A DNA stretch of 64,000 bases from Pseudoalteromonas nigrifaciens (GTDB lineage: Bacteria; Pseudomonadota; Gammaproteobacteria; Enterobacterales; Alteromonadaceae): positions 3,038,001 through 3,102,000 of the forward strand of contig NZ_CP011036.1 of the NCBI RefSeq assembly GCF_002221505.1, read 5' to 3'. This document shows positions 35,276 through 54,254 of the stretch, in pieces. Position 1 is the stretch's first letter; each line of letters begins with the position of its first letter. Under the pieces are notes generated by a model. That model worked only from the letters and a program-made list of their open reading frames with translations. It searched no databases and was not told the origin of the DNA. Position numbers and translations under genes: made by a program.

Positions 35276-35348
35276 ATAATTTATTACTACCCACTTTATA
35301 ATAAATAGACAATACTGAATTAATTAATAATTATTAAGTCGTTATTTG

Positions 35349-36532: not shown

Positions 36533-36537
36533 ATATT
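36533..36537. repeat. 5-bp target-site duplication, left copy (ATATT)
   Basis: ATATT directly precedes the TGTG terminus and matches the five bases following the right terminus. Five-base duplications are the rule for Tn7-type transposition. Confidence 0.92.
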
Positions 36538-36597
36538 TGTGCAGCGACAATAAAGTTTGCCCGTAACAGAAAAAATGACAATAAAGTTTGCCCGTAA
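36538..36597. repeat. Left end of the Tn7-like element with two TnsB-type sites
   Basis: Terminal TGTGCAGC, then GACAATAAAGTTTGCCCGTAA at 36546-36566 and again at 36577-36597 with 10 bases between. The same 21-mer occurs inverted at the right end. Confidence 0.93.
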
Positions 36598-36955
36598 GAG
36601 AAGGTGAGGCTTTAGTTTCTGCAAGCAAAAAACAAGTTAACAACGCTAATAGCTGGCGTAAGAATGAGTAATTTTTTCAACATCAGAATGTCGAAAAGCC
36701 AGCGGCCACAAAAGTGACGGCTGGCTTTCCTACCCACCCTATCCCGTAATCACATGGTATGTTTCGGCTAATCAGCAGTACCTTTGACCTAGCTTAATAA
36801 AAGCAATAACAATGTGCTCCTAAAAATGTTTGAATAGCGCTGCGGTAGCAAACTGGCTAGTCACAGGGCTTACCAATACAGGTGCTTCAAACTGATGTGG
36901 TTTATCCACATATTTTGGCGTTAAGGTGCCAGTTTCCTATGGGGGTCTCACTAAT
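36598..36955. other. Sub-terminal region of the left end
   Basis: No intact gene. It contains a hairpin with arms AAAGCCAGC (36695-36703) and GCTGGCTTT (36720-36728), terminator-like, and a decayed minus-strand reading frame at 36820-36936 listed separately. Nothing else was recognised. Confidence 0.5.
36820..36936 (-). pseudogene. Remnant C-terminal reading frame, unknown family
   Basis: A 38-codon open stretch between two stops on the minus strand without a start codon. It includes LTPKYVDKPHQFEAPVLVSP and ends TAALFKHF. Composition looks protein-like, so it is probably the tail of a gene truncated during turnover of the element. I do not recognise it. Confidence 0.35.
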
Positions 36956-37463
36956 TTACCAAATAGCAGGGTATTCAACAACTCCGTCAATACCAAACCC
37001 ATGATTTAACAAAGCTTGCCTTACTATAAATGGCAATGTATTCGCATCGCTAGGGTACTTAGCTAGAGTAGTTTCTGAAAATGTATCAATAGCATCTAGC
37101 AGCTCTGATAGGCTAAATTGCTCAGAAACAACCGAGCCCCAAATAGCGTCTTCAACTGTTGATTCTAATTCGGCATTTGTATTTTGAAACATTAGGCTAC
37201 TTTGATACACAACTCTGAACTTGTTGTTACCCTGATGATGGATAACAATCTTAAGCTGAGGAATCTTTTTTAGTAACTGAGATTTAACTCGTCTAGCATC
37301 AAAAAATGCTTGGCTTAATATCACCTTCCCTTCAACTTTATAGAAATTTTTTGAATTTTTCTCTGGAACGATATTCCAATAAACACGAAAAGAGTTTCTT
37401 CTTAATTTATGACCATAAATTTCAAGCAAGGGTTTTAGCTGCTGTTCAGTGCCTTGTTTAGAG
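36956..37463 (-). pseudogene. Unknown gene, 5' end removed by an IS3-family element
   Basis: The frame is open from the IS boundary (37463) to a stop at 36956, about 168 codons, and has no convincing start of its own; a TTG at 37429 would be internal. The tail is intact: KLRRNSFRVYWNIVPEKN, then KVILSQAFFDARRVKSQLLK and a C-terminus NHGFGIDGVVEYPAIW. No membrane segment. Family not recognised. Its place on the tns strand near the left end is compatible with an accessory transposition or cargo gene, but that is inference only. Confidence 0.55.
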
Positions 37464-37471
37464 TGTAGTGG

Positions 37472-38652
<1,181 letters not shown>

Positions 38653-38729
38653 TTTTACACCCAAATTTGTATGCTTATTAGCATAACATTTCTTTCTTAA
38701 TGGGTGGCCAAATTAACTATGCCACTACA

Positions 38730-39655
38730 TACCCAAAGATAAATTGTGACAACAAAGATTGAAACTCACTTTTGGACAGAAACGTGTCAGGGACTTTTCT
38801 AAATTAGCAACGCACAGATAGCAATACGTACGGCTGTGTTTATCAGACCTGTTTATTCAATAACTTTATCGAGTCCGTTCAAAAGTACCGTTCACATCAC
38901 GCGTGTAACTTTCCCGTGTGCAATTCGTTATTAGCGCTTACATGGCAAGGCCTCTAGGTTAATACGACAGTGTAACCTAGAGTGCCGCCGCACCTGTTTT
39001 TAATGTGAAATGGTAGATACACCGGCAATTATTTTAATAAATACTCACCTTTTGCTTATTCGTAAAAGTGCTATGCGTTAAATTATGATTAAGCGGAACT
39101 AAGGCGACAGGTTAATTTTTTCAGCGCCGCAGATAGTTAAAAAATTTTGTTAGTATCAAAGAAACATAAAAAATGAAGGTAACCAGGCACGAGGCCTGGT
39201 TGAAAATCAACGATAGTAAAATGGCATGGATGCCACGTTCTAACCGCCAATCTTTTACGGCAATTTAAGATTACACTGCGGTTGGGGCACTATCAATATT
39301 AATGAGCACGCGAATGAAAATAGATATTCATTATAAAGTGAAAGTAGAAGGAAGGTTTTCTATTAATTTAATTTCCCTAATTTCTGTAGCCCAATTGGTT
39401 ATAAGTTTAATAGGTTAATTGTTAGGTAGGGGGTATTGCAGGTCAAAGTGTGATACCCCATTATTTTAGCCGCTAAAATTAAAGTTTCACCGGTGAAACT
39501 CAGTTGTTGGATGAAGGTCTTGTGTTTGATTTTCTGCTATCAGTTAACAAATATAAAAATTAATTATTTATCATTATGTTTTCATTTTTTGACAATGCTA
39601 AAGGCGTGAACTATAAATACCTTTCAATTGATATTAAAAGGGAAATTCAAGGACT
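38730..39655. other. Non-coding stretch with hairpins and an 18-bp palindrome
   Basis: No convincing gene in about 930 bases. Structures seen: CTCTAGGTTA / TAACCTAGAG hairpin (38952-38982), AACCAGGC / GCCTGGTT hairpin (39181-39201), a GGGGTAT / ATACCCC pair near 39430-39463, and the perfect palindrome AGTTTCACCGGTGAAACT (39483-39500), about 155 bases before the next gene. A 31-codon frame at 39173-39268 (MKVTRHEAWLKIN...) spans the second hairpin but has no good ribosome site. Confidence 0.5.
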
Positions 39656-40228
39656 ATGAAAATAAATTTAATTAATTGCCTGCTATCTGTAGTCATAGCA
39701 ACTGGTGTAAGTAATATGAGTTATGCTGAGGAAGTTCCGCGCAGTCAACAAGTAATTACCTCCCTTCCTGTACTCACTAGTCAGAATGCTCCAGCTCCTG
39801 CCGAAATCAAAAACATCCGCATGGAGTCTGAATTAATGGCTCGAGCATCAGCTCCGCCGCTATCTTCAATGTGGGTATATGCTGTTGGTTCAACTGATTG
39901 TGGGTGGGAGTCCACTGTTGGTATGACAACAACTGCATGTGATCATGGGGGAGAGCAGCTGCGTACTGCTGTTTTAGAAATTGGTTATGGTTATAATCAT
40001 ATTGCTTGGATGAACGGTGGGTTACTTCCGAGTTCCACAATGTACTCAAGTACGCCTGTTTGTGTGACTGGTAGTAATTACACATGGCCTTGTACCGCTG
40101 GGCAAACTGTCGTGGGTTTCCTCAATGAATACAATGTCGATGGTCATCAAAACGGATTATTCAAATACCAAAATACTTCGACTAATTCGCCATGGAATAC
40201 TATGTCAGTCCAGATCAGTATTCTTTGA
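39656..40228 (+). CDS. Small exported protein, DUF4879-like
   Basis: 190 residues: signal peptide ending NMSYA, a proline-rich linker (about 25-65), and a globular domain with VYAVGSTDCGWES, CDHGGEQL, LEIGYGYNHIAWMNGG, CTAGQTVVGFLNEYNVDG and a tail NSPWNTMSVQISIL. Four cysteines suggest disulfides. I associate the pattern with the YolA/DUF4879 family of secreted proteins, tentatively. A diverged, truncated relative lies at 45015-45330 in the same element. It is followed by a terminator and a convergent gene of unknown function. The role is unknown; a secreted effector, bacteriocin-like or adhesion role are all possible. Confidence 0.7.
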   Translation: MKINLINCLLSVVIATGVSNMSYAEEVPRSQQVITSLPVLTSQNAPAPAEIKNIRMESELMARASAPPLSSMWVYAVGSTDCGWESTVGMTTTACDHGGEQLRTAVLEIGYGYNHIAWMNGGLLPSSTMYSSTPVCVTGSNYTWPCTAGQTVVGFLNEYNVDGHQNGLFKYQNTSTNSPWNTMSVQISIL

Positions 40229-40242
40229 TTTATTAATGATGT

Positions 40243-40266
40243 AGGCCAGACATTCTGGCCTTTTTA
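40243..40266. terminator. Terminator between the convergent exported and MRVDAN genes
   Basis: Stem AGGCCAGA / TCTGGCCT with a 3-base loop and a T run on the plus side. Confidence 0.85.
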
Positions 40267-40271
40267 TATTT

Positions 40272-40709
40272 CTAAATACGAATGTTAACACCAGTACTTT
40301 TGTCTTGCATGATAGACATAGCTGATTCTAACATCTTCAAAGTAGTCTCGTCATTGCGTGACAGTGCGCCTTGGATGCCATCACGCGTTTTTTGAATGAA
40401 GTTATATCGTGTTTCATCACTGTGTGCACCTGCCAGTTCGCCTCCATTTACGGGTATTTTCATAGTCATAGCCATGAAAGGCCTGCCGTCATCGAGAGAC
40501 ATTTCTCCATTGCGGATTTGAGTGTTGGCCCAGTCCCGCATTTCTTGCCGGGTCATACTAGTGAAATCCGCCTGTTTTGTGCTGCTGTCAGTCTTATCAT
40601 TGTCTGTTTGTGCTGCTGTTAATGCAGCCGAAAATGACGTTGAGGCCTCTGTTGAAGGCTTGGTACGCTGGTTCCCATTAAAATAATGTACGTTTGCATC
40701 AACTCGCAT
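40272..40709 (-). CDS. Non-exported cargo protein of unknown function (MRVDAN type)
   Basis: 145 residues. The N-terminus (MRVDANVHYFNGNQ) is followed by a disordered Ser/Thr-rich stretch to about residue 48, then a conserved-looking block FTSMTRQEMRDWANTQIRNG and MSLDDGRPFMAMTMKIPVNG, then a helical tail. No signal peptide or membrane segment. I have seen similar MT..E...W....I..G.MSLD blocks in uncharacterised pseudomonad proteins, from memory only. It is convergent with the exported DUF4879-like gene across a shared terminator, the same arrangement as the pair at 45.0-45.8 kb. Confidence 0.65.
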   Translation of the reverse strand: MRVDANVHYFNGNQRTKPSTEASTSFSAALTAAQTDNDKTDSSTKQADFTSMTRQEMRDWANTQIRNGEMSLDDGRPFMAMTMKIPVNGGELAGAHSDETRYNFIQKTRDGIQGALSRNDETTLKMLESAMSIMQDKSTGVNIRI

Positions 40710-40949
40710 AGGTTCTTTTCCTTAGTATGATCGTATGAGTGATATTAACTGCAAAACCTGCGCCATAATTATACACTTATAGTCTTTTGAAAACGCCTTT
40801 AAAAAGTTTATTTAAATTAAGTTGTTGAAGGTAATTCATCGTAAAGTGAAAAGCTTAATACAGAGGTGTTGGACGGCAAAGGCTTTCCGGTAACTGGAAT
40901 ATTTACTAATAGGCTTGGCTCATAGGCCTTAAATTATTCAGGATAAAGC

Positions 40950-41330
40950 CTAATAAAAGAAGGTTTTGAAATAAGCAATATTAAAGTGAAATATTGGGAT
41001 CGAGATTGATACAAAGATGAGGGATATAGAAATCAATATCCATTTCAATTTTTTGATTTCTTTTAAGTGATTTGCATTTTTAAGCGATTCATTTAGCCGC
41101 TGAATATTTAGTTCAACTTCGTGTACAGTCTCCTGAGAGACGAGCGCTAAATCTTTAATACTATCAACAGAGCTTTTTAAGTTTTTCTCTGTTGCTAGTA
41201 TATGAGTATCAACGCTCTTAATTTCCAGTGATTTCTTCACATATTCAGATAAAGAAATACCTTCCTTTTGCGCCTCACTACTTAAAGACTCTTTTAATTT
41301 ATCGTCAATTCGGATGCTTAGAATAGCCAT
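40950..41330 (-). CDS. Ribbon-helix-helix / coiled-coil / membrane-anchor protein
   Basis: 126 residues from the ATG at 41330; an upstream frame extension is poor in character, and a CAGAGG ribosome site favours this start. Residues 1-40 form a CopG/Arc-like ribbon-helix-helix (AILSIRIDDKLKESLSSEAQ, GISLSEYVKKSLEI). Residues about 45-95 are predicted coiled coil, and 98-118 a membrane helix (WILISISLIFVSISIPIFHF). A DNA-binding domain tethered to the membrane is unusual. The upstream region has two GTATAC-containing sites (near 41350 and 41368) and was cut by an IS at 41464. Function unknown; partition- or mobilisation-related roles are possible. Confidence 0.65.
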   Translation of the reverse strand: MAILSIRIDDKLKESLSSEAQKEGISLSEYVKKSLEIKSVDTHILATEKNLKSSVDSIKDLALVSQETVHEVELNIQRLNESLKNANHLKEIKKLKWILISISLIFVSISIPIFHFNIAYFKTFFY

Positions 41331-41502
41331 TCTAAAATACCTCTGATGTATACGGGTGTAAACAAAGCGTATACGCCTATTTTTAAAGGCGCAACAGGTT
41401 ATTTTAGATGAAAACTGTGTATGACAAAATGAGATAATAGGCACGCTGTCGAATGTATACAAATGAATCGCCCCGAGTTCATCGGAGACCAGTTTGTTTA
41501 AG

Positions 41503-42722
<1,220 letters not shown>

Positions 42723-42932
42723 AGTTCCAGTTTCTCAAGTTATTGAGTCTCTGGCAAACACGGGGCGATTCAAAACTACGCCCACATTACCTCTACAAAG
42801 ATATGCCGAGTCTAAGATTTAAGTAATGCTTATTATCTATGTATATTAAGTTAATTTTTCTTATTAGAAACAACTAAAGTAAGATAATAACCTGCCGATA
42901 ACTAGTAATAAATAACGAACAAGGAAAATGAT

Positions 42933-43652
42933 ATGAAAGTTAATTCAAATGATACTAATCTAGCATCGCAGTTTATATCGAACGGTTCAGAAGTGAAAAT
43001 TAATAAACCTGTAAATGGTAAAGAACAAATAAATAGTGAAATGGAGCGACTAGCTAAGGACATATATCATAATGATCAGCCTAAAGAGCCTAAAGCGACC
43101 TATGATAAGCCAATGAATATATCAACAAATAATGTTGTATCAACAAGGGAAGCAGAAGAAAAAGCGTTAAATAATATTCGAATCGCTACTGTGAATCTTT
43201 ATATGCCGGGTGGTGAAGTTTCCAACTCTGTTGAAAAAATGTTTACTCAGTATGACAATATTGTGGCTGAAATAGCGGCCGAACAACCATCATTAGCGAA
43301 TAAAGACTGGGGGATATCAATCAGTCAATCAGGTGAGCTAGAAGTTACAGGTTCTATTAATGATAAAGAGAAAAGTCTGATATCTGAAAAATTAAATGAC
43401 AACGGGGATTTTGTGGCCGCAGCTAACGAGTTTAAATCGAGCTTTCTAGAGCACATTGACTTGGGAGTTAGGGGGTGGTCAAGTTACGACGTAAACGAAG
43501 ATAATTTCTCAAAAATATTTGATTTAAAAGAAATTCTGGATAATTCACAAGGAGGAGAAAGCTTTAAACAGGCTTGGAATAAGGACTTTAGTTGGCTTGA
43601 GTTAAACGATAATATCTCATCTCAACTTAGAAGAAATGCAGAACGAGAGTAA
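42933..43652 (+). CDS. Non-exported cargo protein of unknown function (MKVNSN type)
   Basis: 239 residues: N-terminus MKVNSNDTNLASQFI, a low-complexity, hydrophilic region to about 100, then a mixed alpha/beta segment with NIRIATVNLYMPGGEV, WGISISQSGELEVTGSIND and a C-terminal helical part. No signal peptide, membrane helix or cysteine pattern. AAGGAAAA precedes the ATG, and an intrinsic terminator follows. Its N-terminus resembles those of three other cargo proteins. Whatever lay directly downstream was replaced by the IS256 element. Function unknown. Confidence 0.65.
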   Translation: MKVNSNDTNLASQFISNGSEVKINKPVNGKEQINSEMERLAKDIYHNDQPKEPKATYDKPMNISTNNVVSTREAEEKALNNIRIATVNLYMPGGEVSNSVEKMFTQYDNIVAEIAAEQPSLANKDWGISISQSGELEVTGSINDKEKSLISEKLNDNGDFVAAANEFKSSFLEHIDLGVRGWSSYDVNEDNFSKIFDLKEILDNSQGGESFKQAWNKDFSWLELNDNISSQLRRNAERE

Positions 43653-43661
43653 TTTATTGCG

Positions 43662-43687
43662 AAAGGGCCTCATTTAGAGGCCCTTTT
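43662..43687 (+). terminator. Terminator after the MKVNSN gene
   Basis: Stem AAAGGGCCTC / GAGGCCCTTT with a 5-base loop and a short T/A tail, 10 bases after the stop. Confidence 0.88.
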
Positions 43688-43719
43688 AAATTATGAAGGT
43701 TCGCTAGAAATTAAATCCT

Positions 43720-45014
43720 GAGGTAGTGTTTAGAAATCTGTGTCATTTCAGTATTATTAAGAAAACAGGAGTGACACATGACTCAATCTTTCGACTTCAA
43801 CAAAGCATTAGCTGAACTTCAAGCTGGTAAAGGCCTTACTGGCGAAGACGGTGTTCTAACACCATTAATTAAACAACTCACCGAAGCGGCTCTTAAAGCT
43901 GAATTAGAGCAGCATTTAGAATCTGAGACCCAAGTTAACCGTAAAAATGGTTCAACCAAAAAAACAGTTAAGTCATCCATAGGTCAATTTGAACTTGAAA
44001 CGCCCAGAGACCGTTCAGGTTCGTTTGAACCTCAGCTTGTTAAAAAGAACCAAACCAAGTTAACGCCTGAAATTGATGAGAAAATCCTATCTATGTTTGC
44101 TTTAGGTATGAGCTATCGAGATATTCGAGGCCACATACAGGATATGTATGGCGTTGAGGTATCAGAGGCCACCATCACTGCCGTAACAGACCAACTGATA
44201 CCAGAGCTTAAAGCATGGCAAGCGCGCAGCTTAGACACGCTTTACCCGTTTATCTGGCTTGATGCCATTCATTATAAGATTAAAGAAAATGGGCGCTACG
44301 TGAGTAAGGCTATTTATACCGTACTAGGTGTCAATATCGAGGGCCGCAAAGAGTTACTTGGTTTATATATCTCTGAAAGTGAAGGGGCTAACTATTGGTT
44401 ATCAGTATTAACAGATTTACATAATCGTGGTGTATCCGATATTTTAATTGCCTGTGTTGATGGACTAAAAGGCTTCCCTGAAGCAATAGCAACAATCTAT
44501 CCTGACGCCGAAGTGCAGGAGTGCGTTATTCATCAAATTCGTAATTCGATGAAGTATGTTGCTTCAAAGCACCAAAAAGAGTTTATGGCTGACTTGAAAC
44601 CCGTTTATAAGGCAGCCACTAAAGATGCAGCAGAAGCCGCTCTCGCCGAATTAGATGCCAAATGGGGCAAGTTATACCCTATCGTTATCGAGTCTTGGCG
44701 TCGTAAGTGGGGCAATCTGTCGGTTTACTTCAAGTATCCAGATTACGTGCGAAAAGCTATTTATACCACAAATGCAATTGAAGCTGTACATCGTCAGTTT
44801 AGGCGACTCACCAAGACTAAGGGAGCATTCCCTAATGAAAACAGCTTGATGAAATTATTGTATGCAGGCATATTGAATGCCTCGAAGAAATGGACAATGC
44901 CAATCCATAATTGGAATCTGACATTGTCGCAATTGGCCATCCACTTCGAAGGTAGGTTAGATGGTGTGCTAGATATTTAGCAACTTAGGCTGACACAGAA
45001 TTCTGAACGCCCTC
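43720..45014 (+). mobile_element. IS256-family insertion sequence (1,295 bp)
   Basis: Imperfect terminal repeats beginning GAGG and ending TCTGTGTCA enclose one transposase gene. Flanks (left AAATCCT, right TATAGAC) do not form the expected 8-9-bp duplication, and the right flank starts inside a truncated gene, so a deletion ended at this element. Confidence 0.88.
43778..44980 (+). CDS. IS256-family (mutator-type) transposase
   Basis: A 400-residue DDE transposase. N-terminal region with LTEAALKAELEQHL and the ELETPRDRSGSFEP block; catalytic motifs WLDAIHYKIKENG, ACVDGLKGFPEAI with VQECVIHQIRNS, and TTNAIEAVHRQFRRLTKTKG (glutamate in NAIE). Full length for the family, so probably functional. 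Starts 58 bases inside the left terminus. Confidence 0.95.
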   Translation: MTQSFDFNKALAELQAGKGLTGEDGVLTPLIKQLTEAALKAELEQHLESETQVNRKNGSTKKTVKSSIGQFELETPRDRSGSFEPQLVKKNQTKLTPEIDEKILSMFALGMSYRDIRGHIQDMYGVEVSEATITAVTDQLIPELKAWQARSLDTLYPFIWLDAIHYKIKENGRYVSKAIYTVLGVNIEGRKELLGLYISESEGANYWLSVLTDLHNRGVSDILIACVDGLKGFPEAIATIYPDAEVQECVIHQIRNSMKYVASKHQKEFMADLKPVYKAATKDAAEAALAELDAKWGKLYPIVIESWRRKWGNLSVYFKYPDYVRKAIYTTNAIEAVHRQFRRLTKTKGAFPNENSLMKLLYAGILNASKKWTMPIHNWNLTLSQLAIHFEGRLDGVLDI

Positions 45015-45330
45015 TATAGACCCTGTATCAGCTAATCAGTTCTCAACCACTCAAAATCATGGCGGTGGCCAAGTTAGAGTTTATGTATTTCAGTTCGGTT
45101 ACGGTAATACAAACAACGCAACGTTTGCAGGTTCTAGTGTATCTGCCACATCTAGCACTCCTAGATGTGGAGCAAACCTAAGTACTTGTAGTGCAGGCCA
45201 AACAGTTACTGGATTCCTCCATCAATTCGATTTTTTTGGCGCATCAAATATAAGTGGTACTGTTAATGTTTCAGCAAATTCGATAGCATCACCATTTGGT
45301 TTTTGGAGTGATTCTGTTTTCGTTCAATAA
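45015..45330 (+). pseudogene. Truncated DUF4879-like exported protein (5' end lost)
   Basis: From the IS256 edge the frame is open for about 104 codons to the stop at 45328-45330. It matches the C-terminal half of the protein at 39656-40228 in order: HGGGQVRVYVFQFGYG (versus HGGEQLRTAVLEIGYG), then CSAGQTVTGFLHQFDFFG (versus CTAGQTVVGFLNEYNVDG), and the same length to the end. The start, signal peptide and first half were removed by a deletion that ended at the IS. It is again convergent with a non-exported gene. Confidence 0.8.
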
Positions 45331-45354
45331 TTAACACACAAGAATTAGAGCACA

Positions 45355-45386
45355 ACCCATGTTCACAATGACACACGAACATGGGT
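45355..45386. terminator. Hairpin between convergent genes
   Basis: Perfect 10-base stem ACCCATGTTC / GAACATGGGT, 12-base loop, only a weak T tail. Placed just as the terminator in the homologous pair at 40.2 kb. Confidence 0.6.
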
Positions 45387-45388
45387 AT

Positions 45389-45832
45389 TTAACCAATAAG
45401 TTTTACAATATCAAACACTCTAGACTTAGCTTCAATTGCATTTCTCATTTGAGCTGACCCGTCACTATGTAATTTTAGGCTTTCCAATTCCTTAGTCACG
45501 TGAGCTACATAATTAACTTTTTCATCTAAATTAAAATCAATACTTGGTGGTGTATACATATCAAGCATTTGACCGCTAGAAATTAACTTATTGTCATAAA
45601 GCTCTTTAGCCATTCCCATTACTTCATTTCCAGAAATATTGGTCATATCGTATTTATTTGCAATTTCTTGCCATTTAGCTTCAGCATTGCGACCGGCAGA
45701 GCTGATTGAAACGGTGTCTGTTTCGGTTTTCTTGGTTGTGTTAGTAGCCTGTCCATCATTTATTCTTGTGCTTAACGCGCTATGTTGGGCTGACTCAGCA
45801 TGATTAACATACGGTGTATTAGTAATTTGCAT
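45389..45832 (-). CDS. Non-exported cargo protein of unknown function (MQITNT type)
   Basis: 147 residues: N-terminus MQITNTPYVNHAES, a disordered Thr/Asn-rich segment ending TDTVSISSAGRNAEAKW, then a helical domain with IANKYDMTNISGNEVMGMAK and ELYDNKLISSGQMLDM. The TDTVSIS and YD.TNIS blocks recall uncharacterised families found in Pseudomonas and Vibrio (from memory). No signal peptide or membrane helix. Convergent with the truncated DUF4879-like gene. Function unknown; a partner, immunity or export-substrate role would be speculation. Confidence 0.65.
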   Translation of the reverse strand: MQITNTPYVNHAESAQHSALSTRINDGQATNTTKKTETDTVSISSAGRNAEAKWQEIANKYDMTNISGNEVMGMAKELYDNKLISSGQMLDMYTPPSIDFNLDEKVNYVAHVTKELESLKLHSDGSAQMRNAIEAKSRVFDIVKLIG

Positions 45833-46247
45833 ATTTGCTCCCTTATTAAATATTGCAACGACAATGCTTATATCAGAGCAAGTAGCAGGCCAACAAATCG
45901 AAACCTGTTATTTGCAACAGGTTTTTTAGAAGTATTAATACTAATCTCACAAACTAAGTGATCATTTATATGGGTTAAAACCACTAACTACTGCGTTATT
46001 TATTTAATTATTAGAACAGCTAGTTATGTAAAAAAGCCTTGTGTTTAATGATTTTCCTCCGCCTAAAATAGATCACTTAATTAATGAAAGTGGTATAAGC
46101 ACGAAAGTACACATCGAGGTAGAAATGTCAGTGATTTTAGCCAACAGAAGCGGCAAATGGGAAATAGTATGGTTTAATAACGGCAAACTATTGCCGATTA
46201 AATAAGGGGATAATTAAGTATTCATTTAAATCTCGAATGAATGAGAT
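45833..46247. other. Intergenic region with an orphan terminator and a short open frame
   Basis: Contains a terminator-like hairpin AACCTGTT / AACAGGTT plus T tail (45902-45927, plus direction), although no plus-strand gene lies upstream. A 54-codon open frame at 46041-46205 (GTG start, no ribosome site) encodes FNDFPPPKIDHLINESG then GKWEIVWFNNGKLLPIK; it may be the tail of a lost gene. Confidence 0.4.
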
Positions 46248-46841
46248 CTAGCCTAGCGATAATTTTGTTGCTTCAGTTGATACTTTTTCAAATACATCAT
46301 TCAATATTCTATAAATCGTAGCCGAACCCAAGTCATAATCTTTTGCCAATTGACCAATGGGTACACCTTCTTTCCTTTTATTATAAATTTCTAAATCTAT
46401 TTCATCGGTTCTTTTTGTTGGTCGACCAAATTTAACGCCGTGCTCTTTAGCTTTAGCAATACCCTCTAGTTGCCGCTCAGAGCGTAAATCAGTTTCAAAT
46501 TCGGCAATGGCTGCTAACATGTTAAACATTAACCTTCCAGTGGGAGTAGATGTATCAATTGCTTGGTCAATTACTACTAGATCAATATTTTCTGCCTGAA
46601 AGCGCTCCGCAACTTGTGATAAGTGAATAACGGAACGCGCAAGACGGTCTAATCTGGTGATAACAAAAGTGTCCCCTTCCCGAAGATAATTCATGCACTT
46701 TTGAAACTCTGGTCGAGCCGCTGTTTTACCACTTTGCTTTTCATGATAAATTTTATCGCAGCCAACTTGATTTAACTTATCAAGTTGCACTTCTAAACTT
46801 TGACCTGTTGAGCTTACTCTCGCGTATCCAATTTTTGACAT
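46248..46841 (-). CDS. Serine recombinase (resolvase/invertase family)
   Basis: 197 residues from the ATG at 46841; the longer frame adds an unlikely leader. The catalytic serine is S10 in KIGYARVSSTGQSLEVQLDK. Also present are GDTFVITRLDRLARS (active-site arginines), the E-helix MFNMLAAIAEFETDL, and a C-terminal helix-turn-helix GQLAKDYDLGSATIYRIL. The length and single HTH fit Tn3-type resolvases and invertases. It diverges from the exported 170-residue gene with a res-like repeat region between. It probably resolves cointegrates or dimers or inverts DNA; the substrate is not obvious here. Confidence 0.9.
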   Translation of the reverse strand: MSKIGYARVSSTGQSLEVQLDKLNQVGCDKIYHEKQSGKTAARPEFQKCMNYLREGDTFVITRLDRLARSVIHLSQVAERFQAENIDLVVIDQAIDTSTPTGRLMFNMLAAIAEFETDLRSERQLEGIAKAKEHGVKFGRPTKRTDEIDLEIYNKRKEGVPIGQLAKDYDLGSATIYRILNDVFEKVSTEATKLSLG

Positions 46842-46849
46842 TTTTTTAT

Positions 46850-46928
46850 CGTATACTTTAAGATGTTTTGATAAAAACATTATGAGAGTACTTTTGATAA
46901 TAGTCAAATATAGTTATCATAAAGTATA
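46850..46928. promoter_or_regulatory. Candidate res site upstream of the resolvase
   Basis: Inverted repeats TATACTTTA and TAAAGTATA bracket an AT-rich 80-bp segment with further partial repeats (TTTTGATAA, TTATCATAA). Position between the resolvase start and the divergent gene is typical for a res site that doubles as an operator. Confidence 0.5.
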
Positions 46929-46965
46929 GCTTTTTGTAAACTAACTCAATAAAGGATTTTAAGTT

Positions 46966-47478
46966 ATGAAATATTCACATTTACTCCCTGCAACAATGTT
47001 TGTTGTTGCTGCTGCAAGTTTTTCTTTCAATGCAATCAGTGCTGATACTTCGGTTACAGAGTCATCTTCGATTCAAGTACAAGAGCAACATGATCAAGTT
47101 GCATCATTGAATTCTATTCTTGATTTTGAAGAAGCAGCTAAAAATGAGCAAACAACCAGTGAATATGAACGTTGTAGCCCTACAATTTACACTAGATACA
47201 CTAGTCTTAAATTGGAGCAGACTCGAACTATTGCAAGCTTTACTTATGATGGTGGTAATTGCCGTAGATACGGTTTTGCAATTTTAAGAAACTATGACGG
47301 ACATGATTTCAAAGTGACTTTGGTTGATAGCAATGGAGATAGAGTTGCTGGCGGATATAGCGTAGCAGTTTCCACTTCTATCTTTAATGCAGGCACTTAT
47401 TATTGGGAAGTTGAAAATAAAACAACAACTGGATCTACTTATGGTGGAATTACTTATGAAGTAAGATCTGGTGGCTAG
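46966..47478 (+). CDS. Small exported protein of unknown family
   Basis: 170 residues. The signal peptide has a hydrophobic core MFVVAAASFSFNAIS, with cleavage likely after SFNAISA. An acidic linker (about 25-65) precedes a C-terminal beta-rich domain with RTIASFTYDGGNCRRYGF, HDFKVTLVDSNGDRVAGG and FNAGTYYWEVENKTT, suggesting a small beta-sandwich resembling the bacterial PPC-like fold. Two cysteines may pair. It lies 120 bases ahead of the MKISTN gene on the same strand with a large hairpin between. Function unknown. Confidence 0.65.
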   Translation: MKYSHLLPATMFVVAAASFSFNAISADTSVTESSSIQVQEQHDQVASLNSILDFEEAAKNEQTTSEYERCSPTIYTRYTSLKLEQTRTIASFTYDGGNCRRYGFAILRNYDGHDFKVTLVDSNGDRVAGGYSVAVSTSIFNAGTYYWEVENKTTTGSTYGGITYEVRSGG

Positions 47479-47484
47479 TTAAAC

Positions 47485-47524
47485 TTTCTATTAACGACTC
47501 AGCCCTATGAGTCGTTAATAGAAA
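47485..47524. terminator. Perfect 17-bp inverted repeat after the exported protein gene
   Basis: Arms TTTCTATTAACGACTCA and its exact complement around GCCCTA. It starts 7 bases after the stop. There is no clear T tract, so it may be an RNA-stabilising hairpin as much as a terminator. Confidence 0.65.
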
Positions 47525-47598
47525 ACAATCTAAAATAAAAGCTTAAGTTTTATAAAATTATGTCGATAAAAGAAAACGACATATGAAAAAGGATTTTT

Positions 47599-48273
47599 AT
47601 GAAAATCAGCACCAATCTACTACCTACTCTATTTGAAAGTAAAATATCTATTTTTACAAACAGTGATGATGAAAAAATAAAAAGCTTTTCTACTAAAACA
47701 AGCGAAAGTGGCTTAAAAATTAATATAAACACAACTCACCTTGATCCTAAAGTTAAAGAAAAAAAAGACAATAATGCTTTTGATTCATCATTAATTGAGG
47801 GAAGTGCATATGAAAAAGTATTTAAAAAAGAAGAGCTCAACTTTTCTAATATGAGTATAAAAGAACTTCATAGTATTGTTAAAAATGTGAATGAAATGGA
47901 ACGAGAATACACACAAAAATACGATAGTGATGAACCAGTTAGATTAGGTAAGTCAGGAAACCCCATAATATCCAAAAAAAGAGAAGATATGAATAGTTTA
48001 GAGTCTAAACTTAGGATCCTTTCTTATGGTGGAGGGGATGTAGATCCTGATAAAAAAATTAATGTTATGGAGTATTTTTCTAATAGTTCAGAGAAATTAG
48101 ATGGACTTGCTAAAGAATATCCTGAACGTCAGACTTATCAAGTAAGAGCCTCTTACATGAAAGAAATAATTAATACGTTTGATAAATTTATATCAGACGA
48201 TACTTTTGATTTATATCAAGAAAAGGCTGCTTTATTGTTAACCGACAAAAAGAAAGTCGATGTTTTTATTTGA
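47599..48273 (+). CDS. Non-exported cargo protein of unknown function (MKISTN type)
   Basis: 224 residues, lysine-rich and very AT-rich in codon choice. N-terminus MKISTNLLPTLFESK, a hydrophilic region to about 75, then a helical domain with NMSIKELHSIVKNVNEMERE, SLESKLRILSYGGGDVDPD and a helical C-terminus. No signal peptide or membrane helix. AAAAGGA precedes the ATG. It follows an exported-protein gene in the same direction. Its first residues fit the M-(R/K/Q)-(I/V)-polar pattern of the other three cargo proteins. Function unknown. Confidence 0.62.
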   Translation: MKISTNLLPTLFESKISIFTNSDDEKIKSFSTKTSESGLKININTTHLDPKVKEKKDNNAFDSSLIEGSAYEKVFKKEELNFSNMSIKELHSIVKNVNEMEREYTQKYDSDEPVRLGKSGNPIISKKREDMNSLESKLRILSYGGGDVDPDKKINVMEYFSNSSEKLDGLAKEYPERQTYQVRASYMKEIINTFDKFISDDTFDLYQEKAALLLTDKKKVDVFI

Positions 48274-48431
48274 AAAAAGCCTAGAACATAGCAAAACAGC
48301 TAACAGCTTATTGAACACCATTTTGGTGGTTTATAACACACCGAAACGGCGTATATTACATACCCTGATAATTTCACCAATAATTACCTTTGTAAACAAG
48401 TAATTAAAACAGCTAGGAATTAAGCATGTTA

Positions 48432-48578
48432 TTTTGCCCCAAAACGGCGTTTAATAATGTTATTGGACAAAATTAGATTTCTACTTAAAACACAGGAATA
48501 AATTTAACTTTTTCAGTGTCCGGTTATCGCTCAAAGCCGACCTATAGAATAATTGCTTTAACACGTTTTGGGGCAAAA
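48432..48578. repeat. Perfect 15-bp inverted repeat, 117 bases apart
   Basis: TTTTGCCCCAAAACG (48432-48446) and CGTTTTGGGGCAAAA (48564-48578). The 147-bp unit could be a small non-autonomous element or a structured RNA; no known family was recognised. Confidence 0.55.
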
Positions 48579-48618
48579 GCTTGTTAGAACAAAAGGCAGA
48601 CTGCGATAAATAGCATCG

Positions 48619-48689
48619 AAAAGTTTCAAACTTTATTGCCATGGTTTCGGTATTTATTGTCGAGTTTCATACTTTAATGTCCTCCGACA
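48619..48689. mobile_element. End of a second Tn7-like transposon (remnant)
   Basis: Read on the minus strand from 48689 it starts TGTCGGAGGACATTAAAG, then TATGAAACTC, a second unit GACAATAAATACCGAAACC and a third GGCAATAAAGTTTGAAACTT. From memory the Tn7 right end is built the same way (TGTGGGCGGACAATAAAG, then repeated GACAATAAAG...AAACT). The three units differ from the sites at 36.5 and 54.2 kb after the shared AATAAAGTTTG core, so they belong to a different element. The element body would lie at lower coordinates and seems lost. Confidence 0.6.
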
Positions 48690-48800
48690 ATAGGTGCCGT
48701 TGGCATGGTCATTCTCATCATCAAAAATGAAAAGAATAACGGTTAAAAACACCTACTGGCTAGACAAAAACGTGTACAAATTGAACGATTGCCATTCAAG

Positions 48801-48907
48801 CCGATCACTCAATACCATTTTGACCGAAAAGTGATCGGCATCGATGGTATTGAGTGATCTTGATGGATGGTATTAGGTGATCGGCTTAGATAGTATTAGG
48901 TGATCGC
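48801..48907. repeat. Repeat array resembling an IS21-family end
   Basis: GGTATTGAGTGATC (48846-48859), GGTATTAGGTGATCGG (48869-48884) and AGTATTAGGTGATCGC (48892-48907) in direct order, plus an inverted copy CCGATCACTCAATACC (48801-48816). Multiple terminal repeats of this kind are typical of IS21 elements. No istA or istB gene is present, so this is a solo end. Confidence 0.5.
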
Positions 48908-49229
48908 GATGCATGAAGTCAATAGACTTAATAGAAGAAGCTGCTAGGGGTTTACATCCCGAAGCTTTATTTGAATACAGCCGTATTATACTGAACCAGA
49001 TACATCGCGACACATAGGCTTTTCAACCTTATTCTGACCCGTTGTTTAAAACCTAGCTATTAAAAGTTTATTGACCTGCTCAATTTTCGTTTCCAATCTT
49101 TTTTCCCCTATCTATACTGATAACTAATACTCTTGCTATAAAGCCAGCTCTGGTTATAAGCTAAAATGAGCTGCCTGTATGAATCGCCCCGTGTTTGCCA
49201 GAGACTCAATAACTTGAGAAACTGGAACT

Positions 49230-50449
<1,220 letters not shown>

Positions 50450-50488
50450 CTTAAACAAACTGGTCTCCGATGAACTCGGGGCGATTCA

Positions 50489-51171
50489 ATAATTAGCATG
50501 CCGAGAAAGCTAGATTTAATACACTGCTCTAATTGACGAACAAGTGCACCTATTGTTCCTGCTGGCTTAGTTTTTTCTTTATCTAATGAAAGATCTAATA
50601 CTGATAAAATTTCTTCACATAAATCTCTTACACTAGAATTACTTGGGCAATCAACTTTTATCCAAACAACCTGTTTTAATGCTGTTAATGAACAACCTTT
50701 GTATGAATCATGCTCTATAACATTAGGGAAATAATTAAGAACTTGCTCAAGCATTGACGATTTACCTACACCCCTTTCACCAATTAGCGTTAAACCCTCA
50801 CCTTTAGGCTGGAAAAATCCAGTTCTAGGTTCAATTTCAGGCCTTTCATCAACTAAATAATGTAAATATTGTGCGGTAGTAGGGCTAAGTGGATTTTTTG
50901 CTGAGTATCCTTTTTTAATAGCTCTTTCTATTGCTCTGAAGCAAGATTCATAGTCAGTCAAAGGTTGTCTGAGTTCTTCTATTCTATTTAGGTATTCTTC
51001 TCTTACTAATGGGTTTGGGTGTTCAGAAACTTCTTCAGCATAATCTGGATAATTACAAAATACAGTCATAACAACTTGCCAAGCAATTTTAGGAGGAAGG
51101 GCTTCAATTAAGGGATTACCTTTGTGTTCAGGTAATATTGCATCATGGTATATAGCTTGAGTTATTGTCAT
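50489..51171 (-). pseudogene. tnsC: Transposition regulator TnsC, truncated by the IS
   Basis: The first 227 codons of an AAA+ ATPase. The start overlaps the tnsB stop (ATGA). Walker A is GERGVGKSSM at residues 131-140; the reading frame runs into the IS right after LGMLII, that is at the start of Walker B, so the acidic Walker B residues, sensor regions and the contacts with TnsA/TnsB are missing. TnsC normally links target selection (TnsD/TniQ) to the TnsAB transposase, so loss should stop transposition unless an intact copy exists elsewhere. Confidence 0.93.
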
Positions 51172-53306
51172 GATGACTCTCCTTTTGTTCTTCTTTTTCT
51201 ACCAACCGGTAAAGAAACGATCTTATCAGATCTGTTTTCTGATGGTGTAATATCGATATTTTTATTGCTCTGTATTTTTGGCTGGAGTATGTTCGTTGTT
51301 GCTTGCAACTCATCCTCACGTCTTTGGCGGACATTCTTCGTTTTTTCGGAGAACGTTATCTTTTCAGCATTGTAGCTTCTTTTTTTAGCGTTTTTGGTCA
51401 CATGATGACGATTTTGGTGATCATCTATAGATGTAACACTTATAGGGGTCAATTCTTTTTTTGAGTCTAACCAGTCTTGTATAAATTCAGACTCATACAT
51501 CGATTTATCTTTAAACATGCGACTACGTGGCGATAGATAACAGAGCTCAAAACTTTTATTTTTATCTAGTTTTACATAAATGTGATTAGTTGTATTTTCA
51601 TCAATTCGCGCTTCTAATTTCCACTGACCTGATGATCTAGCAATAGATGCTAAATTTCGTTCTTCAATTTCTTTGTTCGAATAATACAAACCATTAAAGT
51701 GTATTCCATTGCGCGTCATACTGACTTGTGCAGGGGGAAGTAAGCGAGATATAACATCTTGAGGTAGAGCGGCTTGAAGTTCATGTTTATGCCTCGCGAG
51801 ATGTATCTTCCAATAATTGATGGGATTTGGAGATAAGTCACTTTCAACTAGTAACGGACTAGAAAAAGCTAAGTCAGCAAATATGGATTTATTATGCTCT
51901 AAAACAGCTTTAATGATTTGAACAGTCACTTCTTTTAAAGTGTAAATAGCATCCTTTCGAGGATCTCTACTCCCCCTGATAACGTTAGCACCTCGAGTGG
52001 TACCTAAAAATTCATGAATAACTTCTTTATTTAAAATATCAAAGCGTTTTTCAACCACCCCCTTACAGTCAGGTCTATAAGGGGGGGTGAAAGAAAGCTT
52101 AGTCATCGGGTTTAACGCTTTTTTAGGCTGTAGGCCAATCATTTCACCATTATCACAAACAAGTTCCTTTGGGATATGCGAGCAAGGCCACTCTGAATCA
52201 TCTATATCAATACCAAACTCTTCGCAGTAACGAGATTTAGGCATAAAACAGTTTGATAATGCTTGCCTAGCTGCACGCCATGAAGCATGGAAGAGTGAAA
52301 CATGCATGCCAACTATCATTCGACTGGCTCTGTCAACGACAATGTAAATTATTGGTCGGCCTAATACATATTGAGAGCCAAGCTCAGAAACGATATGAAC
52401 ATCAGCAACTGTTGCATCGATTTCAAAGTGAGCACCGGGCAAATAACTATCCTGAATAACGCTACCTAATAAGCCTCTTTTATTCCTTAGGTGATCATTT
52501 TCCGAGGTTCTACTTTTAATAAACTCATCTTTCGAAAATATTTTCTTTGACCAGTAGCTAAACTGTTTAAGAGTAGGAACTACTGGCGGTTTACCATATG
52601 CATTAGCAAGACGTACTTCATCAGCATAACTATCTATTAGCATATTTTTATAAGTTTTTGACAACGTCAAGCCTGTTTGCTTTAGATAGTATTTTTTAAG
52701 TGCTTTCCTAAATTTATTTTTATCTATATCAGTGACTATAAATTTAACTGATCTTTCCACAGCGACGGTTCTTGGCTGTTTAGGTGATCCCAATGGTTTA
52801 TCTGTTGGTTTCTTATCTGTCCCAAAACCACCACTATTATTATATGCTGGTAAAAGAGCCATTTTATCTTGGCCGTAACGCCAATATTGCATTAAAAGTC
52901 GAGATAATGCCTTTCGATCTACTCCTACTTTTTTCGCGTGTTTAGCAAGGTGTGAAACACGTTTTTTAGTTGCATAATCAAAAATAAAACCTCGGTCAGA
53001 AATAATTCCTTCAATTAGAGAATAGTTTTTATCTCTACGAGTAATATGTTCTTTTGCGATATTTTCTTCTGCAACTAAAAGAAAACTGGGAAGATTAAAA
53101 CCTGCTTTACTAGCATTTCGACTTTTTACATTTTCAGTAAATGCTTCAATTGAGACAGCAAAAGGGCGAGTGGTGACCGATTTAGTATTCAAAGGAAATA
53201 GAATGATCGATGTAACATCAAGCATAATTTCTAAAATTCGGTACAGACCATCTTCGGCTAAGTCGGAGCCTTTCAGCCCCCATACACTATTTCTAGGAAG
53301 TTCCAT
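51168..53306 (-). CDS. tnsB: Tn7-like transposase TnsB (DDE)
   Basis: 712 residues (Tn7 TnsB has 702). N-terminal DNA-binding helices (about 100-260, for example KKVGVDRKALSRLLMQYW), then an rve core with D297 in HFEIDATVAD, D385 in LVCDNGEMIG and E419 in KGVVEKRFDI. The D-D spacing of 88 is the same as in Tn7 (273 and 361, from memory). The C-terminal tail is basic and presumably contacts TnsC. It binds the repeated 20-21-bp sites and joins the 3' ends to target DNA. Overlaps tnsA by 14 bases and tnsC by 4. Confidence 0.96.
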   Translation of the reverse strand: MELPRNSVWGLKGSDLAEDGLYRILEIMLDVTSIILFPLNTKSVTTRPFAVSIEAFTENVKSRNASKAGFNLPSFLLVAEENIAKEHITRRDKNYSLIEGIISDRGFIFDYATKKRVSHLAKHAKKVGVDRKALSRLLMQYWRYGQDKMALLPAYNNSGGFGTDKKPTDKPLGSPKQPRTVAVERSVKFIVTDIDKNKFRKALKKYYLKQTGLTLSKTYKNMLIDSYADEVRLANAYGKPPVVPTLKQFSYWSKKIFSKDEFIKSRTSENDHLRNKRGLLGSVIQDSYLPGAHFEIDATVADVHIVSELGSQYVLGRPIIYIVVDRASRMIVGMHVSLFHASWRAARQALSNCFMPKSRYCEEFGIDIDDSEWPCSHIPKELVCDNGEMIGLQPKKALNPMTKLSFTPPYRPDCKGVVEKRFDILNKEVIHEFLGTTRGANVIRGSRDPRKDAIYTLKEVTVQIIKAVLEHNKSIFADLAFSSPLLVESDLSPNPINYWKIHLARHKHELQAALPQDVISRLLPPAQVSMTRNGIHFNGLYYSNKEIEERNLASIARSSGQWKLEARIDENTTNHIYVKLDKNKSFELCYLSPRSRMFKDKSMYESEFIQDWLDSKKELTPISVTSIDDHQNRHHVTKNAKKRSYNAEKITFSEKTKNVRQRREDELQATTNILQPKIQSNKNIDITPSENRSDKIVSLPVGRKRRTKGESS

Positions 53307-54120
53307 TCATGACCCCTTTTTGCATAGAAGCGATAGATTTGACATCTAAAATTCCAACTTCAGGAATATTAGATGATAAATCTACATCAATGTATTTATC
53401 TGCAATTAAATAACGAATAAGTAACTGTGAATCATCATATTTAACTATATTCATGGAAATAAGTTTATTACAAAGATCTTCAAAAAAAACCTGCCCTACA
53501 TTTATAATATTTAAAGCACGACTTATTTGTTCGTCAGAAAAACGTGTTGGATTTTCACGAAAAGGAGCTGATACCCATTCAAGATTACGACTTTGAGTTT
53601 TGGTCAATTCGTTACCAGTGAAGTAGCTAAACTTAACTCCAAGCAGTTCCCAACAAACTCGTTCAATATCAATTTTTTCAAGTACTCGTTGCTTATTCGA
53701 TTCACTTTCTGGCTTAACTGAAATGGCGTGATATGAAATACCTTGAGTAGAATCAATAGTGAGTAATTGATCCGTAGTCATAATTATAGGTTCTTTGGTA
53801 TTAGGGTGGGTCGGATGCTCAACACCCAGCATATTTGCCACTTTTTGCGTATAATTGAGTGGTAAGATAGGAAATTGCTCTCTTATATCAACAACGCTGT
53901 CAGAAAACTCTGCCAAATAGAAGAGCTCAGCCTCAATTGAGGACATCATATGATGTTCACGCTGAGACTTTCGTCCAAAAATTAATGATCTTATGCCGTG
54001 AGATTTAACATCCTGAATTCGCAGCCATGGCTTATAATTAAAACCTTCTCCTATCCCATACTTATTCTTAAGGGCTCGCTGAAAATCTTGTACAGATTCT
54101 AACTTTCTTCCACGTGACAT
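53293..54120 (-). CDS. tnsA: Tn7-like endonuclease TnsA
   Basis: 275 residues from the ATG at 54120 (MSRGRKLESVQDF); a frame extension of 14 codons runs towards the transposon end and is less likely. The length matches Tn7 TnsA (273). The nuclease residues are in place: E63 in SSIEAELFYL, D117 in MTTDQLLTID and K136 in HAISVKPESE. TnsA cuts the 5' ends so that the element moves by cut-and-paste. First gene of the tns operon, starting about 50 bases from the nearest TnsB-type site, so TnsB binding may repress it. Confidence 0.95.
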   Translation of the reverse strand: MSRGRKLESVQDFQRALKNKYGIGEGFNYKPWLRIQDVKSHGIRSLIFGRKSQREHHMMSSIEAELFYLAEFSDSVVDIREQFPILPLNYTQKVANMLGVEHPTHPNTKEPIIMTTDQLLTIDSTQGISYHAISVKPESESNKQRVLEKIDIERVCWELLGVKFSYFTGNELTKTQSRNLEWVSAPFRENPTRFSDEQISRALNIINVGQVFFEDLCNKLISMNIVKYDDSQLLIRYLIADKYIDVDLSSNIPEVGILDVKSIASMQKGVMNGTS

Positions 54121-54170
54121 GAGTATTACCAATACCTTTACATAGATAAAGCATAGTGGCAAACCTCACT

Positions 54171-54249
54171 ACGGGCAAACTTTATTGTCTGAAAACCCCC
54201 TTACGGGCAAACTTTATTGCTTACGGGCAAACTTTATTGTCTCTACACA
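54171..54249. repeat. Right end of the Tn7-like element with three TnsB-type sites
   Basis: Sites at 54171-54189, 54201-54220 and 54221-54241 (plus strand TTACGGGCAAACTTTATTGTC); the outer two are directly abutted. The terminus reads CTCTACACA up to 54249. Closely packed sites at the tns end and spaced ones at the other end follow the Tn7 plan. Confidence 0.93.
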
Positions 54250-54254
54250 ATATT
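54250..54254. repeat. 5-bp target-site duplication, right copy (ATATT)
   Basis: ATATT directly follows the right terminus and matches 36533-36537. Its last two bases belong to the stop codon of the neighbouring flavoprotein gene. Confidence 0.92.

Follow-up and report, generated by a model that had tools for sequence, protein, structure and literature searches.

What brought a Tn7-like transposon to the 3' end of the flavoprotein gene yhiN in Pseudoalteromonas nigrifaciens, and can it still leave? The element lies in a 64,000-nucleotide stretch of this genome (contig NZ_CP011036.1, positions 3,038,001 to 3,102,000 of the forward strand), hereafter the window, whose numbering is used for coordinates. 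It is very probably an immobilised copy from a yhiN-targeting (Tn6230-type) clade, which a TnsD protein would have directed to a place near the GYNFQYAW codons of yhiN and which an insertion sequence (IS) would later have disabled. TnsA/TnsB-type genes, paired ends with TnsB-type sites, a 5-bp duplication, an empty site and a place by yhiN that is typical of the clade are all found in the DNA.

An element delimited to the base

The element and the sites at its ends are as follows.

36538 to 54249, no strand: Tn7-like transposon of 17,712 bp, left end at 36538 and right (tns) end at 54249, delimited by inverted termini, duplication and empty site
36533 to 36537, plus strand: left copy of the ATATT target-site duplication, 5 bp, with the empty site in genome G101
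54250 to 54254, plus strand: right copy of the duplication, 5 bp, sharing 2 bases with the yhiN stop codon
36546 to 36565, plus strand: TnsB-type site, left end 1, pattern GACAATAAAGTTTGCCCGTA
36577 to 36596, plus strand: TnsB-type site, left end 2, pattern GACAATAAAGTTTGCCCGTA
54222 to 54241, minus strand: TnsB-type site, right end 1, pattern GACAATAAAGTTTGCCCGTA
54202 to 54221, minus strand: TnsB-type site, right end 2, pattern GACAATAAAGTTTGCCCGTA with 2 mismatches
54170 to 54189, minus strand: TnsB-type site, right end 3, pattern GACAATAAAGTTTGCCCGTA

An earlier reading of the window, made from the sequence only, had placed the element at 36533 to 54254, a span that comprises the transposon plus both duplications, and its description of the ends stands throughout. 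Read inward, the termini are TGTGCAGCGACAATAAAGTTTGCCCGTAA on the left, from 36538, and TGTGTAGAGACAATAAAGTTTGCCCGTAA on the right, from 54249 (in longer form, TGTGCAGCGACAATAAAG and TGTGTAGAGACAATAAAG); these inverted TGTG termini agree at 27 of the 30 outermost bases and are flanked directly by the perfect ATATT repeats. With up to 3 mismatches allowed, the window has five copies of the 20-bp site, two at the left end and three at the right; a mean of 0.01 would be expected by chance, and none of 100 shuffles gave five copies. At up to 2 mismatches, the whole 4.27-Mb genome contains these five sites only. Two extra matches in G000, with 3 mismatches each, were rejected as ends, since the reversed control pattern also gave one. 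Site arrays at both ends, TGT termini and a 5-bp duplication, together with a TnsA endonuclease and a TnsB DDE transposase, are the features of a Tn7-like element.

The locus that received the element comprises the following.

54253 to 55437, minus strand: yhiN (HI0933-like flavoprotein; PF03486, 1.6e-92), stop codon at 54253-54255
54286 to 54309, minus strand: GYNFQYAW codons of yhiN, used as landmark in the measurements; first base 60 nt from the element end
54275 to 54310, minus strand: predicted TnsD-binding stretch, +23 to +58 from the duplication centre, placed as in Tn7 (PMC2918618; this and the other papers are cited from excerpts)
35346 to 36455, plus strand: diguanylate cyclase gene beside the left end, adjoining yhiN in the empty site

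The empty site proposed as a check in the sequence-only reading, yhiN followed by the diguanylate cyclase gene with a single ATATT, was found in G101, the genome with the closest yhiN (99%). There, yhiN is followed by the same cyclase gene (94%) with no element end. When the window flanks are joined through one ATATT, 248 of 276 positions match this site, and one of the 3 gaps in the comparison falls where the flanks meet. The tns end abuts the 3' end of yhiN, as had been noticed, the right duplication overlapping the stop codon by two bases. The tns end of Tn7 adjoins its target gene too.

Insertion at yhiN as the habit of a clade

With regard to the genus, a search for TnsB in 108 genomes gave any match in 55, and matches of at least 44% identity over more than 250 residues in six (G000, G021, G018, G034, G012 and G088, the last a partial copy). 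Five of the six elements lie at the yhiN 3' end, 3-6 bp past the stop. Fragments sit beside yhiN in two further genomes, namely a 50-residue piece of TnsB in G020 and pieces of TnsA in G044. The target duplications of the relatives are GCCTA in G018 and CCTAG in G034, the latter with one extra T at the right end.

Beyond the genus, the search for other TnsAB elements at yhiN suggested in the sequence-only reading took the form of a GTDB scan. Of its 55 loci, 32 have a TnsB at least 38% identical (L184-L215), and yhiN lies directly upstream of tnsA in 27 of these; at the other 23, with 33% or less, yhiN had no match with E <=1e-4 within the DNA examined. In a TnsB tree, the window falls with 31 other rows on one branch with support of 100/100, and 28 of these 32 rows, a set different from the 32 GTDB loci, are labelled yhiN. 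The element thus combines insertion at the yhiN 3' end with a TnsB from a clade found mostly there, and the idea that the use of yhiN is peculiar to this genome was rejected, this gene being the usual site of the clade. The nearest TnsB relatives are from Shewanella (80%) and Psychromonas (78%), those of Pseudoalteromonas reaching just 46-53%; the closest kin thus lie outside the genus, which points to transfer between genera.

Intact members of the clade carry the selector genes. In G018 and G034, TnsD proteins of 518 and 527 aa have TniQ and TnsD Pfam domains (in G018, PF15978 at 9e-27 and TniQ at 1.6e-12) and a helix-turn-helix, and TniQ is also matched by another, shorter protein of 329 and 377 aa, respectively, below the cut-off in G034. 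Plasmid-borne relatives are also found: L207 (Serratia) lies beside parA/parB genes, and since a 340-kb plasmid of Citrobacter freundii matches all of its 3.4 kb at 100%, this insertion is on a plasmid. Furthermore, TnsB matches 461 plasmid records in PLSDB at E <=1e-30, 343 of them predicted conjugative, a count that mixes families, the rows listed ranging from ~51% to 28% identity. The second tniQ and the plasmid-borne relatives together suggest that intact members would have a second, plasmid-directed pathway.

That yhiN is a site of Tn7-like elements, of Tn6230 in particular, is known from the literature as excerpted: it is the att site listed for Tn6230 in Table 1 of a 2024 review, with molecular details given as unknown (PMC11406308), Tn6230 carries tnsABCD (PMC8865565), yhiN-yhiM is a hotspot in E. 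coli (PMC10121019), and in E. coli J53 a plasmid-borne pco/sil element moved into the yhiN-yhiM interval (PMC8417528). A sil-bearing member of the clade was found here at yhiN, and we infer that the J53 element is of the same kind. The window element shares with the Tn6230 subfamily the separate TnsA and TnsB, the insertion at the yhiN 3' end and, in intact members, the TnsD-type selector, but differs in that the window copy is without the tnsC 3' half, tnsD and the second tniQ; its identity with the named prototype would follow from the reported place of that prototype. A member shared by E. albertii and E. coli has the same spacing as the window element, whereas its TnsB is only 40% identical; of 5426 E. 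coli genomes, 674 match at least 80% of the length of its yhiN-tns segment (7.0 kb). The proposal of the yhiN 3' end as attachment site is upheld by the habit of the clade and the clean empty site, but the site had already been published for Tn6230 (PMC11406308), and the landmark is probably a motif inside the gene. In the excerpts of the full-text literature on yhiN with Tn7-like elements, there is no mention of a motif spacing or of several families at one yhiN; the general gain lies in the spacing rule and in the sharing of the site by more than one family.

A short coding motif as the probable landmark

The spacing was measured from the first base of the G-Y/F-N-F-Q-Y/W-A-W codons to the TGT of the element, with offsets of 24-83 searched. 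An end score of at least 15/22 was reached by 42 distinct loci, some with degenerate ends whose first base is unsure, and in 41 of these the insertion lies 57-63 nt from the motif (median 60). This count omits L193, L200 and L201, from the same genomes as G021, G034 and G012, and rows below 15/22; also unscored are L184, L185, L197, L204 and L206, with codons off the pattern, and L205, L207, L210, L212 and L215, without the motif. In this protein family, the GYNFQYAW stretch is an FAD-binding motif.

Stop codon and motif separate in enterobacterial loci. The empty gene of E. coli AVS0068 has its native stop 63 nt from the motif, and in E. coli YSP8-1 the element starts at 59 nt, inside yhiN and 4 nt before the native stop place. 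The yhiN frame also reads into the element in Yersinia (two loci), Citrobacter (two) and E. albertii (one), where the motif distance is 58-61 nt. As a side observation, the insertion in YSP8-1 (L254:12106-12180) replaces the last yhiN codons, and the element end supplies a new stop at 72.

This geometry matches that of Tn7, whose TnsD protects +23 to +58 from the duplication centre on glmS (PMC2918618). In the window, the yhiN motif occupies +34 to +57, and a motif 57-63 nt from the insertion falls within the stretch that Tn7 TnsD covers. The two systems thus share a 5-bp duplication and, presumably, a site read from a conserved C-terminal coding stretch, and differ in the target and in the distance from the stop, Tn7 inserting ~20 bp beyond that of glmS and the window element beside that of yhiN. 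By analogy, TnsD of the yhiN type would bind the GYNFQ(Y/W)AW coding stretch, and the comparison of loci suggests that these codons, 57-63 nt away, rather than the stop codon, are probably the landmark. The earlier description of the element as inserted at the yhiN stop codon is thus right as to position and probably not as to landmark. The insertion distance from one short, conserved coding motif is nearly constant and agrees with the TnsD-glmS geometry, which makes for a concrete, testable proposal.

In the proposed mechanism, a TnsD with a TniQ domain, a helix-turn-helix and a TnsD C-terminal region, as in intact relatives and Tn7, would have bound the DNA encoding GYNFQYAW near the end of YhiN. 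Bound TnsD would have recruited TnsC, and TnsAB would have joined the element ~60 nt from the motif start with the tns end towards yhiN.

Probable decay of the regulator and selector genes

The tns genes of the window and the IS that borders them are listed here.

53293 to 54120, minus strand: tnsA, frame open from 54162 and ATG at 54120; Pfam PF08722, 4e-16; E63/D117/K136 counted from the ATG
51168 to 53306, minus strand: tnsB, 712 aa; D297, D385 and E419; 80% identical to TnsB of Shewanella holmiensis (L199)
50489 to 51171, minus strand: tnsC remnant, first ~228 codons, ending at the IS boundary in an apparent Walker B motif
49180 to 50488, plus strand: IS3-type insertion sequence, copy 2, adjoining the tnsC remnant, without target duplication; Pfam transposase as in its twin copy

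TnsB is named by likeness to its clade, its Pfam match to Mu-transpos_C being below the cut-off, and an NCBIfam search of TnsA and TnsB gave nothing informative. The genes and residues pointed out earlier were recovered; we take E63/D117/K136 of TnsA and D297/D385/E419 of TnsB to be catalytic from their resemblance to Tn7, the TnsB spacings of 88 and 34 resembling those of Tn7 TnsB.

The closest comparison is with S. holmiensis SP1S2-7 (L199), inserted at yhiN at 57 nt, with TnsA 82% and TnsB 80% identical. The tnsC remnant is 88% identical to residues 1-229 of its TnsC, with no real match further on: at the break L199 reads LGMLVIDEMQN, while the window reads LGMLIIES and passes into IS sequence. 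In L199, unlike in the window, tnsC is open over 468 codons, and there is a TnsD of 523 aa. The AAA+ regulator is thus reduced here to ~228 codons that retain Walker A, while TnsC is complete in relatives, and we read this as decay in this copy rather than as a lineage-wide absence.

With regard to the rest of tnsC, tnsD and the second tniQ, the window gave only short chance-level matches (E <= 10), and the Pfam TniQ model matches once in the whole genome, in another element. The TniQ/TnsD protein expected to read the gene end is missing from this copy, which retains only half of TnsC, and the choice of site by such a protein is presumed from intact relatives. A deletion at IS copy 2 most simply explains the losses: an IS would have entered tnsC, and the deletion would then have removed the remainder of that gene, tnsD and the second tniQ. 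Because these are gone, this copy is crippled and should not move by itself. This decayed state, with a truncated tnsC and no TnsD or second TniQ in the window, was absent from the sequence-only reading. The window shows one route to fixation, in which regulator and selector genes are damaged by an IS while ends and transposase genes are kept.

Weighing the explanations

Several observations weigh against a TnsD-directed insertion at the yhiN motif. Clade members L205 (Buttiauxella), L207 and L215 (Pantoea) adjoin other genes, the right end of L210 (Shewanella sairae) is eroded and yhiN is absent there, and L212 starts within tnsB, so that its site cannot be judged. In G088, a clade member lies upstream of yhiN (L040:1-2200, L072:1380-1680), with its right end beside the neighbouring subtilisin gene on one contig, its left end upstream of yhiN on another and AAAAA beside both, which is apparently a single insertion separating the two genes; the contig pieces examined showed no tnsD. 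Ends of the same type at unrelated targets had been named as grounds for dropping yhiN as the attachment site, and they do occur, but in a minority, so the site stands. Among yhiN loci, L211 lies at 49 nt. Furthermore, stop and motif are inseparable within Pseudoalteromonas, since the stop lies 54 nt from the motif in all 107 scored loci; they separate in enterobacterial loci only, whose right ends were placed by consensus likeness. Finally, the selector is missing from this copy, and its role is taken by analogy with intact relatives.

Direct recognition of the stop codon or of the yhiN terminator would agree with the constant 54 nt, with the start of Pseudoalteromonas clade ends that keep TGTG 1-6 bp past the stop, and with the overlap of ATATT and stop codon here. 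It is nevertheless very unlikely, given the E. coli element that starts 4 nt before the native stop place, the Yersinia, Citrobacter and E. albertii frames that enter the element at an unchanged motif distance, and the variation of the duplicated bases between loci. Slightly less credit is due to continued mobility with TnsC and TnsD supplied by another element of the same genome, although ends, TnsA and TnsB look intact and the genome holds one other TniQ-bearing element. The latter is an apparent type I-F3 CRISPR-associated transposon whose guide resembles rsmJ and whose own tnsB is apparently interrupted; its TnsC-like protein is 23% identical to G021 TnsC over 148 residues (E 0.008), and its TniQ had no match at E <=10 to the yhiN-type TnsD and TniQ proteins tried. 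The heavy rearrangement of the interior by IS elements might make one think of a chance or composite structure, such as two remnants of different insertions, but the matching ends, the exact duplication and the G101 empty site joining the same two flanks leave this with a negligible probability. An immobilised, once TnsD-directed copy of the yhiN clade hence remains the preferred explanation.

As for the members away from yhiN, the first TniQ-type frame of the Buttiauxella locus (L205:13469-15669) has 330 codons between stops, compared with TnsD proteins of 518-527 aa in two yhiN members; a changed selector would fit its different site.

Other families at the same site

Scoring was possible for 107 of 109 yhiN loci in the 108 genomes (G064 has two loci; G061 and one G064 locus lack the motif pattern). 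Clade ends at 15/22 or better lie behind yhiN in 23 of the 107, as against 0.31% of 3,584 control places and 0.23% of shuffles; in 16 of the 23, no TnsA or TnsB match was seen in the stretch examined. At 14/22, the figures are 26 of 107 loci, 1.8% and 2.4%, and the placings in G013 and G048 look like chance.

Ends of other kinds are also found there. The type B end TGTATTCTG lies behind yhiN in five genomes and at none of 16,743 control places, and a GAAGACA-type (type C) end in twelve genomes and at 4 of 6,636 control places, both patterns having been picked after the sequences were seen. G040 holds a complete 16.3-kb type B element with matching inverted ends, tnsA, tnsB, tnsC, a short TniQ and a TnsD-like gene; its tns genes are at the end far from yhiN, and its flanks TTAAA/TAAAA agree at 4 of 5 positions. 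In G009 (type C), tnsA, tnsB and tnsC of another kind lie 13.6-18.2 kb from yhiN, the far end being beyond the 18.6 kb examined, and we infer that they belong to the end at yhiN. The names of the type B and C proteins rest on BLAST likeness, not Pfam, and their main matches to the clade are 22-30% identical.

Types B (G040, G095) and C (G009) thus share the landing place of the window element but differ from it in a TnsB 23-25% identical to that of G018, in end sequences and in tns genes far from yhiN. The TGT of TGTATTCTG is at 58-59 nt from the motif in 5 of 5 type B loci; in the other twelve loci, TGT or TGA is at 57-59 in ten, four of them starting TGA, a weak result for a short word easily met by chance, and G062 and G045 do not fit this spacing. 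At least one further deeply diverged Tn7-like family, and probably two, uses the same yhiN spot in the genus. A broader reading is that the GYNFQ(Y/W)AW coding stretch acts as a ruler, at 57-63 nt, shared by three or more Tn7-like families that separated long ago, differ in their ends, have opposite gene orientation and each use a TnsD of their own; their elements would pile up and decay, leaving end remnants behind many yhiN genes. Since the type C element was not seen complete and its spacing test is weak, we give this tentative reading slightly less than an even chance. A swap of target selectors between families was rejected: in the TnsB tree and in the TnsD tree, the latter by a quick method, the rows fall into three groups (the present clade, type B or B/C, and others), and between unrooted trees of three groups no conflict can arise.

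Compact units of one transposon end and a GGGGTGATCGCTTCACCCC-type hairpin lie directly behind yhiN in several Pseudoalteromonas species (L044, L158, L162, L163, L174; genomes G086, G014, G032, G033, G104, G026, G031 and G005). They are possibly mini-elements or decayed ends fused to a terminator, or possibly end remnants now acting as terminator. A similar unit occurs twice away from yhiN in G099, and a search of G000 that allowed up to 2 mismatches did not find the bare hairpin. Downstream of yhiN in G107 (L242), a type C-like end is followed ~8.5 kb off by a left end of the window's family, possibly elements stacked at one site.

Cargo of the window element

The interior of the element contains these further features.

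41464 to 42772, minus strand: IS3-type insertion sequence, copy 1, inverted and 99.85% identical to copy 2, with AAA on each side (weak evidence of a duplication in A-rich surroundings)
37462 to 38729, minus strand: another IS with an rve transposase, 94.9% identical to an IS in the yhiN island of G044
43778 to 44980, plus strand: Mutator-family transposase (PF00872, 1.8e-103)
46248 to 46907, minus strand: serine recombinase with a resolvase domain (PF00239, 4.1e-44)

Small cargo proteins at 36956-37429, 40272-40709, 42933-43652, 45389-45832 and 47599-48273 had no Pfam match above cut-off and no PADLOC match (E 0.01). With regard to a CRISPR-associated transposon, no CRISPR-like repeat array was found within 36538-54249, and no Cas-like frame was recognised among window open reading frames (ORFs) of at least 80 aa, part of which were scanned with Pfam or PADLOC.

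The element beside rsmJ

The apparent type I-F3 element of the same genome lies beside rsmJ (L041:5484-11590, L009:12822-18193; ~C1:410-440 kb). Its genes encode a TnsA-like protein (below cut-off), an AAA protein weakly TnsC-like and TniQ; IS genes apparently interrupt its tnsB. Csy3 and Csy4 were recognised above the cut-off, a protein of 710 aa matches Csy2 below it, and the element also has a short array. The last repeat is atypical, and the spacer behind it agrees with the 3' end of rsmJ at 24 of its 32 bases, while 200 shuffles reach at most 22. Its anti-phage cargo (L009:3121-10073, L009:4-2763) includes two proteins that exceed the NCBIfam cut-offs, Avs1a and Avs1b, and the initial portion of an Avs2-like gene; IS21-like ORFs lie nearby. 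The yhiN element of G012 carries ORFs of 392 and 1921 aa that resemble an Avs1 pair by length and first residues only.

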